Source: Streptomyces sp. R302 (lineage in GTDB: Bacteria; Actinomycetota; Actinomycetes; Streptomycetales; Streptomycetaceae). Taken from it: DNA of 64,000 bases. Both the position numbers and the translations under genes were made by a program. The DNA lies in contig NZ_JABBGE010000011.1 of assembly GCF_012927245.1 (NCBI RefSeq), positions 186,001 through 250,000 on the forward strand, in the 5' to 3' direction. This document shows positions 3,981-12,338 of this stretch, one piece after another (the first letter of the stretch is position 1; every line of letters begins with the position of its first letter). Below the pieces are notes generated by a model, which was not told where the DNA came from, searched no databases, and saw only the letters and a list, made by a program, of their open reading frames with translations.

Positions 3981-4352
3981 TCAGACCTCCAGGCTCGACT
4001 CGATCCTCTTCAGCTGGTGGCGGGCCATCGCCAGGTTGGCGCGGTCCTTCGACAGGGCCAGGTAGAGGAAGAGGCCCTGGGAGCTGCGGCTCTTGAGGAG
4101 CCGGATGAGGTGGTACTGGGTGCCGAGGGTGATCAGGATGTCCTCGATCTCCTCGTCGATGCCCAGCAGCTCCATCGCCCGGACCTTGGCCCGGACCACG
4201 TCGGTGTTGCCGGCGGCGGCGACGGTCAGGTCGAGCTCATGGCCGCCGCCGACGGTGCCGAGCGCCATGCCGCTGGTGTAGTCGACGAGGGCCGCGCCGA
4301 TCGCGCCGTCGATCGCGGCGGCTTCCTTGAGGGCGGTTTCGACGTTGGTCAT
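3981..4352 (-). CDS. Roadblock/LC7-domain protein (last gene of the Roadblock operon)
   Basis: Single Roadblock/LC7 domain of 123 residues: helix 1 with GAIGAALVDYTSGMALGT, then DIL(I)T and YHLIRLL strands, ending with SSQGLFLYLALSKDRANLAMARHQL. These small proteins dimerise and in bacteria act as GTPase-activating or scaffolding partners of MglA-type Ras-like GTPases (CvnB in Streptomyces conservons). No GTPase gene is nearby. It lies 54 bp downstream of the next Roadblock gene and is probably co-transcribed. Confidence 0.85.
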   Translation of the reverse strand: MTNVETALKEAAAIDGAIGAALVDYTSGMALGTVGGGHELDLTVAAAGNTDVVRAKVRAMELLGIDEEIEDILITLGTQYHLIRLLKSRSSQGLFLYLALSKDRANLAMARHQLKRIESSLEV

Positions 4353-4406
4353 GGTGCGACTTCCTTCTGTCTTCTCTGTCTTCCGTACGGATGGGATGGC
4401 GTGGGG

Positions 4407-4799
4407 TCAGTGGGTGTCCCCGCGGTCCAGCGCGCCGTCGACGAGTGCGCCGATGCGGACGCCGGCGCGGCGGGCCTCCAGGTGGAGCCGGCCCACGTTG
4501 ACGCGGGGTTCGGCGAGCAGGGTGAGGACGGCGGCGCCGCCGGCCGCGTACGTGGCGACGTAGCCGTCCTCGCCCCGTACGAGCAGTTCGCGGAAGGCGC
4601 CCTGGCCGGTGGACTCGGTGAGCCGCCGGCCGACGCCGAGCGCGGCGGCGGTCAGCGCGGCCACGTTCTCCGCGGCGCCGTCCACGGTGTCGTGGGCGAG
4701 CACCAGGCCGTCGGCGCTGGCGGCGAGCGCCCCGGTGAGCTGGGGCAGCCGGGCGCGCAGGCGTCTGAGTTCGCCGAGCACCTCGGCTTCGGCTGTCAT
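4407..4799 (-). CDS. Roadblock/LC7-domain protein (third gene of the operon)
   Basis: 130 residues if translation starts at the ATG at 4799, which has GAGAGGAGA about 7 nt upstream; an earlier in-frame ATG at 4844 lacks a site. The sequence contains the Roadblock pattern GALAASADGLVLAHD, GYVATYAAGGAAVLTLLAEP and a final NVGRLHLEARRAGVRIGAL helix. It lies 41 bp downstream of the DUF4388-like gene. The role is inferred to be a dimeric scaffold or GTPase regulator; the partner is unknown. Confidence 0.8.
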   Translation of the reverse strand: MTAEAEVLGELRRLRARLPQLTGALAASADGLVLAHDTVDGAAENVAALTAAALGVGRRLTESTGQGAFRELLVRGEDGYVATYAAGGAAVLTLLAEPRVNVGRLHLEARRAGVRIGALVDGALDRGDTH

Positions 4800-4840
4800 C
4801 AACTGTCTCCTCTCGGCGCGCAGGCGCAGAGCACGCCTCA

Positions 4841-5608
4841 TCACAGGTGTGCCTCCAGGGCGTCACGGAGCCGGCGCAGCAGGGCGATGTCGGGGTCGGA
4901 TACCGGGGGGACCGGCGGGAGGGCCGGGGCGGGCGGTACGGGGGTGGTCTCGGGGGCCGCGCCGAGCGGGGGCTCGACGAGTCCGGCGGCGGCGAGCCTG
5001 CGGACGTCGAGGAGGGTGTGGAAGGCGGGGCGGCCGAGGAGCCGGGCCAGCTCGGCGGGGGTGCGGACGCCGTCGGCGGCGGCGAGCAGGGCGCGCCGGC
5101 GGGCGCCGACGCCCTGGCCGGGGGCGGCCGGGCGGGGCACGACGGGGGCGGTGTCGACGGAGGCGTACGGCCAGACGGCGTCGAGGAGCTCGCGGCGGCG
5201 CAGCGTCTCGCGCTCGACGGCCTCGGCGGAGACCGGGCGGACGGTGCCGAACCAGTGGCCGACGCCGTACCTGAAGCGGGTGGGGCCGCTGGTGGGGGAG
5301 AGGGCGAAGAAGGCGGCGTCGAAGACGGCGCCGAGGTGGCAGATCTCCAGCTCGCCGTCGCCGAGCCGGCCGCTGTCGACGAGGAAGCGGCCGACCGCGC
5401 GGTGCGCGCCGGCCCGGTCGACGGCCTCGTCCCAGCCCTCGCGGGGCAGCCGCCCGGCGGTGGTGAGCAGCACGTCCAGGCCGGGGGAGGCGGGGCTCTC
5501 GGCGTGCACGACGCGGCCGTCGACGAGGTAGAGGGTGCCGTGGTCGCGCAGCAGGGCGCCGGTGGCGCGCTCCGCGGCGAGCCGGACGAGCATGGGGGAG
5601 ACGCTCAT
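4841..5608 (-). CDS. DUF4388-like / winged-helix protein in the Roadblock operon
   Basis: 255-residue protein starting at ATG 5608, whose ATGA overlaps the stop of the preceding Roadblock gene, indicating translational coupling. The N-terminal part (about 1-140) reads like a DUF4388 (PATAN-like) module: ERATGALL, then the strand-turn GTLYLVDGRVVHAES and a later GRFLVDSGRLGDGEL. The C-terminal part (about 165-215; RRALLAAADGVRTPAELARLLGRP) looks like a winged helix, and a Pro-rich tail ends the protein. DUF4388 proteins commonly co-occur with Roadblock proteins and GTPases in polarity and signalling systems. Whether this one binds DNA is unproven. Confidence 0.7.
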   Translation of the reverse strand: MSVSPMLVRLAAERATGALLRDHGTLYLVDGRVVHAESPASPGLDVLLTTAGRLPREGWDEAVDRAGAHRAVGRFLVDSGRLGDGELEICHLGAVFDAAFFALSPTSGPTRFRYGVGHWFGTVRPVSAEAVERETLRRRELLDAVWPYASVDTAPVVPRPAAPGQGVGARRRALLAAADGVRTPAELARLLGRPAFHTLLDVRRLAAAGLVEPPLGAAPETTPVPPAPALPPVPPVSDPDIALLRRLRDALEAHL

Positions 5609-6003
5609 CCGAGGACCAGCCGCTCGGCGAGGTCGCCGAGGCGGATGCGGGCGAGGGCGAGGTTGCCGGTCGCGCGGTCGAGCCAGAGGTGGAGGAAGAC
5701 GCTGGAGTCGAAGGTGGTCCGGACGAAGCGGAGGACGTGGTAGCCGGCCCGGGTGGTGACGATGAGGTCCTCGACGGGCGGTTCGCCGCCGTCCCCCTCG
5801 GTGCCCTCGGCGGCGGTGAAGGAGTCGAACTCGGCTGCGGCGCGGGCGAGTTCCGCGGTCTCGGCGGCCGTCGTCTCGTGGTCGCCGACCGGCGACTCGC
5901 CCGCGGTGCCGAGTGCGAGGCCGCTGTTCCAGTCGACCAGCCAGGCGCCGCGCGCGCCCGGCAGGGTCATCGCCTCGGACAGGCACTCGTCGATTCCGGG
6001 CAC
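5605..6003 (-). CDS. Roadblock/LC7-domain protein (first gene of the operon)
   Basis: 132 residues from GTG 6003, which has GGGAGGGGAAC upstream. The family pattern is clear: GARGAWLVDWNSGLALGTAG, DLIVTTRAGYHVLRFVRT, SVFLHLWLDRATGNLALARIRL. An acidic/Ala-rich insertion (about 45-80) is unlike the shorter paralogue at 3981. It heads a leftward four-gene operon and its stop overlaps the next start. The upstream gap 6004-6179 holds an imperfect palindrome (CAGTGACGG...TTACTG near 6044-6063) and a GGCAT/ATGCC repeat (6087-6109), but no convincing promoter. Confidence 0.82.
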   Translation of the reverse strand: MPGIDECLSEAMTLPGARGAWLVDWNSGLALGTAGESPVGDHETTAAETAELARAAAEFDSFTAAEGTEGDGGEPPVEDLIVTTRAGYHVLRFVRTTFDSSVFLHLWLDRATGNLALARIRLGDLAERLVLG

Positions 6004-6179
6004 GCGGGTTCCCCTCCCGATACGGCGTGCGAGCAACGGCAGTGACGGTGACGTTACTGAACGGCGTGGTCCCGGGAGGGAGTTCTGGCATTTTCCATCG
6101 GAACATGCCGGGGGGTGACCGGAATCGGACGGAGAAGTGTCCGGCGGTGGGCGTCCGGCGGTGGACGCCCGCGCGGTGG

Positions 6180-11010: not shown

Positions 11011-12338
11011 CGACGTACTGGCTGGAACACGCCTGGCTCGGCACCTACGCCGAGCCGGGCGTCGCCCTGGACGTGGCGGACGGCCGCATCACCGCCGTAC
11101 GCACCGGCGTGGACACCCCGCCTCCCGGCGCGACCGTCCTGCGCGGCTTCACCGTCCCGGGACTGGCGAACGCCCACAGCCACGCCTTCCACCGGGCCCT
11201 CCGGGGCACGGTGCAGGTGGGGAGCGGCACCTTCTGGACCTGGCGCGAGGTCATGTACACCGTCGCCCAGCGCCTCACCCCGGACTCGTACTTCGCGCTC
11301 GCCCGGGCCGTGTACGCCGAGATGGCGCTCGCCGGCATCACGGCGGTCGGGGAGTTCCACTACCTCCACCACGCCCCCGGCGGCACCCCGTACGCCGACC
11401 CCAACGCCATGGGCGAGGCCCTGATCGCGGCCGCCGCGGAGGCGGGCATCCGCATCACCCTCCTCGACACCGCCTACCTCTCCTCCGGCTTCGGCGCCGC
11501 CCCCGAACGGCACCAGCTCCGCTTCACCGACGGCACCGCCGAGAAGTGGGCCGAGCGGGCGAGCGCCCTGAAGGACCGGGACGGCGTACGCGTCGGCGCC
11601 GCGATCCACTCGGTCCGCGCCGTCCCCGCCGACCAGCTGTCGACCGTCGCCCGCTGGGCCGAGGAACGGCGGGCCCCGCTCCACGTCCACCTCTCCGAGC
11701 AGACCGCCGAGAACGAGGCCTGCCACGCCGCCCACGGTGTCACCCCCACCCGGCTCCTCGCCGACCACGGCGTCCTCGGCCCCCGCACCACCGGCGTCCA
11801 CAACACCCACATGACGGACGCCGACATCGCCCTCATCGGCTCCACCGCCACCGGCACCTGCATGTGCCCCACCACGGAACGCGACCTCGCCGACGGCATC
11901 GGCCCCGCCGTCGCCCTCCAGCGGGCCGGCTCCCCGCTCTCCCTCGGCAGCGACAGCCACGCCGTCGTCGACCTCCTCGAAGAGGCCCGCGCGATGGAGC
12001 TGAACGAGCGCCTCCGCACCCACATCCGGGGCCACTGGACGGCCGCCGCCCTCCTCCGCGCCGCCACCGCCGACGGCCACGCGGCCCTCGGCTGGACCGA
12101 CGCGGGCACCCTGGAGGCCGGCGCCCTCGCCGACTTCACGACGATCGCCCTCGACACCGTCCGCACGGCCGGCCCCGTCCCCCGCCTCGCCCCGGAGACG
12201 GCCGTCTTCGCGGCGACGGCGGCGGACGTCCGGCATGTGGTGGTCGGCGGCCGGGAGATCGTCAGAGACGGCACGCACACCTCGGTCCCGGACGCCGCCC
12301 AGTCCCTGTCGGACGCGATCGCCGCCCTGAGGGACTGA
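11007..12338 (+). CDS. hutF: Formimidoylglutamate deiminase
   Basis: Amidohydrolase-superfamily enzyme of 443 residues converting N-formimino-L-glutamate to N-formyl-L-glutamate and ammonia, the HutF branch of histidine catabolism. Metal ligands are in [16 protein letters not shown]; the family motifs [17 protein letters not shown] and [21 protein letters not shown] follow. The ATG at 11007 overlaps the previous stop; a GTG two codons earlier is possible. Having hutF rather than a HutG formiminoglutamase implies the five-step route ending in formate. Confidence 0.92.

Follow-up and report, generated by a model that had tools for sequence, protein, structure and literature searches.

We found that a cassette of four genes, which encodes three Roadblock-like proteins (RB1, RB2 and RB3) and a DUF4388-like protein (D) that includes a winged-helix-like region, is present in most of the Streptomyces sampled, and that a conserved operator, unique in its own genome, lies upstream of RB1 at a fixed spacing from a -10 hexamer. 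The best explanation, to which we assign a probability of about 0.4, is that the cassette derives from, or is related to, an old module whose GTPase it lacks, and that it would regulate itself through D acting on the operator while the Roadblock proteins switch D.

In the window, by which we mean the whole 64,000-nucleotide stretch of Streptomyces sp. R302 DNA analysed, the minus strand at positions 3981-6003 holds the four genes in the transcription order RB1, D, RB2, RB3: RB1 (5605..6003, GTG start, 132 aa), a Roadblock-like sister of RB3; D (4841..5608, ATG start, 255 aa), DUF4388-like at residues ~11-138 and winged-helix-like at ~163-216; RB2 (4407..4799, ATG start, 130 aa), an MglB-like Roadblock/LC7 protein; and RB3 (3981..4352, ATG start, 123 aa), with a predicted Roadblock fold and a family without Pfam match. 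RB1 and D overlap by 4 bp, and the same overlap was found in 70 of 79 measured relatives, a count that depends on starts picked closest to those of the query. A search with D that covered a single genome of each species returned 106 relatives, 80 of which were kept, and in all 80 fetched loci (selected via D) the four genes were on one strand and in the same order. By gene, the median dN/dS was 0.21-0.49 in 12 pairs (sample: 12 of the 80 loci), with one RB3 pair at 1.39, and the RB1+RB3 pair was present in at least 25 of 28 same-genus genomes (RB3/RB1 profile, pairs read from the match table). The constant gene order, the recurring pair and the dN/dS values indicate that the arrangement is not due to chance.

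The six flanking proteins were assigned by Pfam as a PLP enzyme with a CBS domain, a DUF4232 protein, an RpiR-type regulator, a polyketide-cyclase-like protein, a decarboxylase and a urocanase; no GTPase, kinase or DUF742 gene was among these six, and none of the CvnD-type GTPase genes of the genome was on the contig of the window. The original prediction of an orphan operon, in which three Roadblock-like proteins are encoded with a DUF4388/winged-helix-like protein and with no GTPase or kinase adjacent, was thus confirmed. One more query from the flanks (window 11012-12338) matched no family, probably through the choice of frame. The RpiR, polyketide-cyclase, decarboxylase and urocanase genes were all absent from 34 of the 80 loci, with the operator kept in 34/34, and RpiR was not found in 37 of the 80, with the operator present in 37/37 (some of the 80 loci end at contig ends). 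The absence of four flanking genes from 34 loci suggests that the cassette stays together as its surroundings change, and the RpiR regulator next to it is unlikely to control the operator, since all 37 loci in which it was not found have the operator. In another genome of the same genus we observed a second cassette-like locus (L194:6411-9276), in which RB3 is divergent from the RB1-like, DUF4388 and Roadblock genes, and which adjoins genes resembling sigR and rsrA as judged from their sequences.

The operator-like palindrome has the form GGCATGTTCC-GAT-GGAAAATGCC followed by AGAAC in the window (6082..6109, minus strand) and, as GGCATGTTCC-N3-GGAAAATGCC-AGAAC, recurred in 78 of the 80 regions upstream of RB1 (20 or more of 30 bases shared with the window). 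This set consisted of the window and 79 loci, leaving out L049, which has a frameshifted RB1 and in which the palindrome was found too. The operator is located 105-148 bp before RB1. Between random pairs of upstream regions, the two arms were 98% and 96% identical and AGAAC 95%, against 41% for the N3 spacer and 48% for the next 20 bases. A TANNNT -10 was present at offset 53 from the operator in 75 of the 78 upstream regions (offsets up to 54 covered), in 31 of 31 sites of a second set (operator hits in genus genomes) and in 38 of the 40 sites of a third set, the other two having it at 54; the putative -10 hexamer of the window is TAACGT (6051..6056, minus strand). With up to 3 mismatches allowed, the 7.95 Mb R302 genome contained a single operator site and no control site. 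With up to 2 allowed, the operator was found in 67 of 121 genus genomes, at a single place in each and with no control match in any; in 66 of these 67, RB1 begins no more than 400 bp downstream of it. The remaining genome, G753, has the operator ahead of RB2 alone and no D in the fetched 3.3 kb, and G748 has the operator and RB1 only, also with no D in the fetched 3.3 kb. There was no match at up to 2 mismatches in 54 of the 121 genomes, among which G161 and G182 keep the palindrome with another suffix, and no match to the Streptomyces operator was found ahead of the cassettes of family f89 or of G050. In three f89 loci (L162, L163, L164), a common conserved stretch, unlike the Streptomyces operator, was noticed by eye upstream of RB1.

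RB1 and RB3 are ~35% identical by sequence comparison and make up a separate Roadblock-like family. RB3 had no match to any Pfam Roadblock model, and its AlphaFold2 model (pLDDT 89.1, pTM 0.84) matched MglB 6h5b_B in Foldseek (E 3.0e-06, TMq 0.78), as well as LAMTOR-type chains (LAMTOR2), MglC 7ct3 (TMq 0.55) and a Streptomyces Roadblock structure; the predicted fold of RB3 is accordingly a Roadblock fold like that of MglB and LAMTOR. RB1, which matched Robl_LC7 (PF03259) at E 0.0013 and 18.9 bits, under the 23-bit curated cut-off, is probably Roadblock-like, a placement made through its homology to RB3, and in the RB3 tree it falls outside the RB3 group. When PDB sequences were searched, RB3 alone gave no Roadblock match and RB1+RB3 gave one at E 0.91, and the NCBIfam search gave no match for RB1, D or RB3 and sub-threshold matches only for RB2. 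With the RB3/RB1 profile, the family was found in 21 of 396 genomes across the phylum (E <= 0.001) and in at least 75 of 296 genomes of the class (E <= 1e-6), and it was present in 2 of 24 genomes in the class of G221 and 1 of 66 in that of G247; the RB3/RB1 set (A1) held 61 of the 80 RB3 loci, 49 of the 80 RB1 loci and both window proteins. RB3 would therefore represent a widespread Roadblock-fold family, unrecognised by Pfam here. A lone RB3 paralogue, 77% identical, was also observed at G000:C23:258887-259255 (L090, L144), where a gene for an ArsR-type regulator (HTH_5, 8.7e-10) comes after it; L148 has a similar RB3-ArsR neighbourhood by eye. In L149 and L197, lone RB3 genes are located 4-5 kb from a CvnD-type GTPase gene, which may be chance.

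RB2 matched the same Robl_LC7 model at E 2.3e-17 and 63 bits, above the cut-off, and was 44% identical over 110 residues to P0014, the GTPase-linked Roadblock protein encoded by the distant relative L140 (RB2 set A3: 40 of the 80 RB2 loci plus the window's RB2). The R302 genome has 8 strong CvnD-type GTPase matches (E <= 5.4e-23, with a relative's GTPase as the query), and each of the 8 genes is at most ~1.3 kb from a Robl_LC7 match; no unpaired CvnD-type GTPase, that is, one without a nearby Roadblock gene, was found in the genome. The 8 Roadblock proteins coupled to these GTPases formed one clade in the tree (support 100/98) from which RB2 was excluded, and their loci would be conservons, judging by the Roadblock-GTPase neighbourhood. 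An unpaired small GTPase was also sought with the Ras profile and rejected: the sole match above the cut-off was a 1033-aa open frame, which we take to be a translation factor, and the second, below the cut-off, was one of the 8.

D is the sole DNA-binding-like protein in the cassette. It matched DUF4388, a domain related to PATAN, at E 0.0018 and 18.7 bits, under the 25-bit curated cut-off of Pfam, and DUF4388 matches were found in 78 of 78 aligned D members at E <= 1 (best 5.9e-06; set A2, 77 of the 80 D loci plus the window's D). Weak HTH matches occurred in up to 19 of the 78 per family (best E 0.0092), and one of the 78 matched DUF742 (E 0.022). The D model was weak overall (pLDDT 53.8), its N-terminal part poor and its winged-helix part better; the whole model had no Foldseek match at E <= 0.001, and the D profile had no match among PDB sequences. 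Residues ~163-216 matched MarR/MepR/DosR-type domains at Z 5-7 (VIA), a range flagged there as common, and the top rows, at Z 7.5-8.1, were a methyltransferase, GATOR1-KICSTOR chains and FAM91A1, none of them DNA-binding regulators, so caution is needed in inferring DNA binding from the fold. The interpretation given in the original prediction is partly supported. Its three Roadblock paralogues stand, RB2 by Pfam, RB3 by predicted fold and RB1 by homology to RB3, but they are not of one kind, RB1 and RB3 being a sister family and RB2 MglB-like. Its DUF4388-like protein with a possible winged helix is borne out by the sub-threshold match and the winged-helix-like region. Its suggestion that Roadblock proteins are linked to transcription is strengthened by the private operator and by the MarR/MepR/DosR-type matches, but is tempered by the commonness of that Z range and by the nature of the top rows. 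Its other suggestion, a remote GTPase as the target, may hold; the genome offers the 8 CvnD-type GTPases, none of which was found to be without a Roadblock gene close by.

Fifty-seven neighbourhoods, hand-picked from the phylum and class matches and no random sample, were fetched, and five distant actinobacterial loci (L135, L137, L139, L140, L143) had a Ras-like GTPase gene within ~1.4 kb of RB3. The GTPases of L140 (two) and L143 scored above a Pfam GTPase-family cut-off and that of L135 below it (22.1 bits vs 27), and those of L137 and L139 were scored by a custom GTPase profile alone. In addition, both L139 and L140 encode a relative of RB2 and a DUF4388 protein whose match to MarR-like domains is weak. 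The profiles used on the neighbourhoods contained some of their own targets, namely P0014 (L140) in the RB2 profile, P0007, P0011 and P0015 (L140, L139, L133) in the 'DUF4388anc' profile, and P0005, P0009 (L140), P0006 (L143) and P0012 (L135) in the GTPase profile, so the matches of these proteins are by construction; support independent of the profile make-up came from the Pfam scan, the RB2 identity comparison, the D-profile search (G050) and the GTPase matches in L137 and L139. The D profile gave no match to the DUF4388-winged-helix proteins of L139 and L140 (neither G221 nor G231 was among the matches listed), and common descent therefore rests on the shared DUF4388 and a similar second domain. 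Between the GTPase and RB2, L140:5335-5994 and L139:2237-2893 encode ~219-aa proteins that are alike by eye, that of L140 having no Pfam match at the cut-off.

Eleven loci (L133, L146, L159-L165, L167, L168; families f3, f1, f89) held the full cassette of RB1, D, RB2 and RB3 and no match to the GTPase profile in the 11-15 kb fetched for each, and other neighbourhoods among the 57 held partial gene sets. In the RB3 tree, in which many of the short or long branches were unresolved, the five GTPase-linked members were placed on several deep branches and the GTPase label required 3 changes, so that several gains are as possible as losses. The cassette may be an ancient GTPase module that has lost its GTPase, and we presume ancestral GTPase linkage followed by losses to be a simpler reading than repeated gain.

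We propose that an old actinobacterial module would have consisted of a Ras-like GTPase, an MglB-like Roadblock protein (RB2), a member of the RB3 family and a DUF4388-winged-helix protein, and that the Streptomyces cassette would be a GTPase-less descendant or relative of it. D would bind the palindrome upstream of RB1 and set transcription of the operon from an activator-like place, ~38-65 bp before the transcription start by our estimate. RB1/RB3 dimers, presumably heterodimers, and RB2 dimers would dock on D and switch it, and a GTPase input to the cassette is possible but unseen. We infer the operator binding of D, the RB1/RB3 heterodimers and the Roadblock control of D. An old GTPase control kit may thus have turned into a gene-control kit. 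It is a doubtful proposition, at this stage, that a Ras-GTPase module has been re-purposed to the point that Roadblock dimers work without a GTPase and MglB/LAMTOR-like proteins control a DUF4388-winged-helix regulator of one private operator per genome.

The main rival, itself rather unlikely in our judgement, supposes that the Roadblock proteins are in-trans adaptors acting on one or more of the CvnD-type GTPases, that D is a scaffold whose winged helix binds protein, and that the operator, to which some other protein binds, serves only to set the dose. The 8 CvnD-type GTPases are available in the genome for such a role, RB2 is MglB-like and shares its 44% identity with a GTPase-linked relative, GATOR1-subunit winged helices match D at Z values as high as those of DNA-binding ones or higher, and in Myxococcus MglB is reported to work on MglA with RomY (PMC9481161) and to bind MglC (PMC12719032). 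However, each CvnD-type gene already has its nearby Robl_LC7 gene, whose product belongs to the clade apart from RB2 (100/98), and the GTPase profile was without match in the 11-15 kb fetched for each of the 11 GTPase-less full cassette loci.

Evidence on the reading that we prefer, in which D acts on the operator, comes from the relation between operator base 7 and D residue 194, which is the start of the putative recognition helix. Base 7 was A together with S194 in 13 of 13 rows, and among rows with base 7 T S194 occurred in 0 of 117 (131 of 151 loci analysed, as unique D/operator pairs). These rows are not genomes, as L202 and L265 are both G789, some records may overlap, and G789, G107, G760, G738 and G753 are each represented twice. 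Of the 250 D columns, residue 194 alone carried full information on base 7 (a count that leaves out the base 7 C locus); RB2 column A3 was as informative, with RB2 Q20, RB1 A11 and RB1 D60 close behind. The 13 A-type rows formed one clade of D (100/100; D tree of 61 of the 131 rows), in which one genome appears twice, and hence amount to a single event; with an equally informative RB2 column, shared ancestry explains the link as well. A single genome, placed on a different branch of the tree of D, had C at base 7 together with R194, F196Y and H197P, and as the joint change of base and residue comprises two events only, binding by D is putative. Q, L and K at residue 194 occur with an unchanged operator, which counts against D as the binder, as do the decayed operators of L042 and L044 described below. 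The pairing of base 7 with residue 194 is therefore a lead, not proof, for putative binding of the operator by D.

These observations also bear on the view, which we find improbable, that a dedicated regulator encoded elsewhere binds the operator, D being no DNA binder and the cassette a downstream effector. Such a regulator would agree with the two genomes (G748, G753) in which the operator is kept and D is missing from the fetched stretch, and with L042 and L044, whose operators have decayed and whose D recognition helix is unchanged. Nevertheless, it would be unusual for an unlinked regulator to have just a single site in each genome, and the neighbouring RpiR does not fit this part, for the reason given above.

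Searches of the literature gave no match for DUF4388 together with roadblock and no paper on this four-gene cassette among the matches listed; the operator arms, used as text, returned best matches listed that were unrelated by title, and DUF4388 alone matched work on nitrite reductase. Among known systems, the Myxococcus polarity module of MglA/MglB, taken together with MglC and RomY, resembles the cassette in having several regulators around one Roadblock protein, and the RB3 model matches both MglB and MglC. It differs in that the cassette has no GTPase, a DUF4388-winged-helix protein in place of RomR/RomX and a private operator; the Ras-like GTPase coupled to a Roadblock protein that defines this module was seen in the five distant relatives and not in the cassette.

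Conservons, the actinobacterial G protein systems (CvnA-D), likewise have their actinobacterial Roadblock protein encoded in a short operon that is conserved, but the cassette is without a kinase, a DUF742 protein and a GTPase: an adjacent CvnA kinase, CvnC DUF742 protein and CvnD GTPase were not found, and RB2 falls outside the clade formed by those Roadblock proteins that are coupled to GTPases in this genome, and hence presumably outside the CvnB clade. A degenerate conservon that lost these three partners, which would fit a Streptomyces Roadblock protein without GTPase and the GTPase loss beside conservon genes described in PMC4316618, is highly improbable and was rejected on the RB2 tree (100/98) and the missing partner genes (neither a kinase nor a DUF742 gene turned up when the six flanking proteins were scanned; a DUF742 match, at 0.022, does occur in one of the 78 D members), and RB1, RB3 and D correspond to none of the conservon components listed in the PMC13343842 abstract.

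In the part of their paper available to us, Wuichet and Sogaard-Andersen (PMC4316618) described a second actinobacterial MglB clade that is exclusively orphan, and RB2 may belong to it. That clade is similar to the cassette in its MglB-like proteins without GTPase and conservon flanks, and dissimilar in that no partner genes or operator are named there in the same part of the text, according to which no orphan MglB had been characterised as of 2014. The same accessible text reports that PATAN-domain genes neighbour MglA/MglB and that Group 3 MglA has a winged-helix partner, an arrangement like ours in the PATAN-domain genes near MglA/MglB and in a winged-helix partner tied to the GTPase, and unlike ours in that the GTPase is present and the Group 3 partner has a receiver-like domain. 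The cassette thus fits the MglA/MglB landscape and lacks the defining features of both conservons and MglA/MglB modules. It provides an orphan MglB-like protein with conserved partners, with distant relatives that are linked to a GTPase and, in the tractable genus Streptomyces, with a defined DNA site, and with such partners and such a site the role of Roadblock proteins without a GTPase becomes directly testable.
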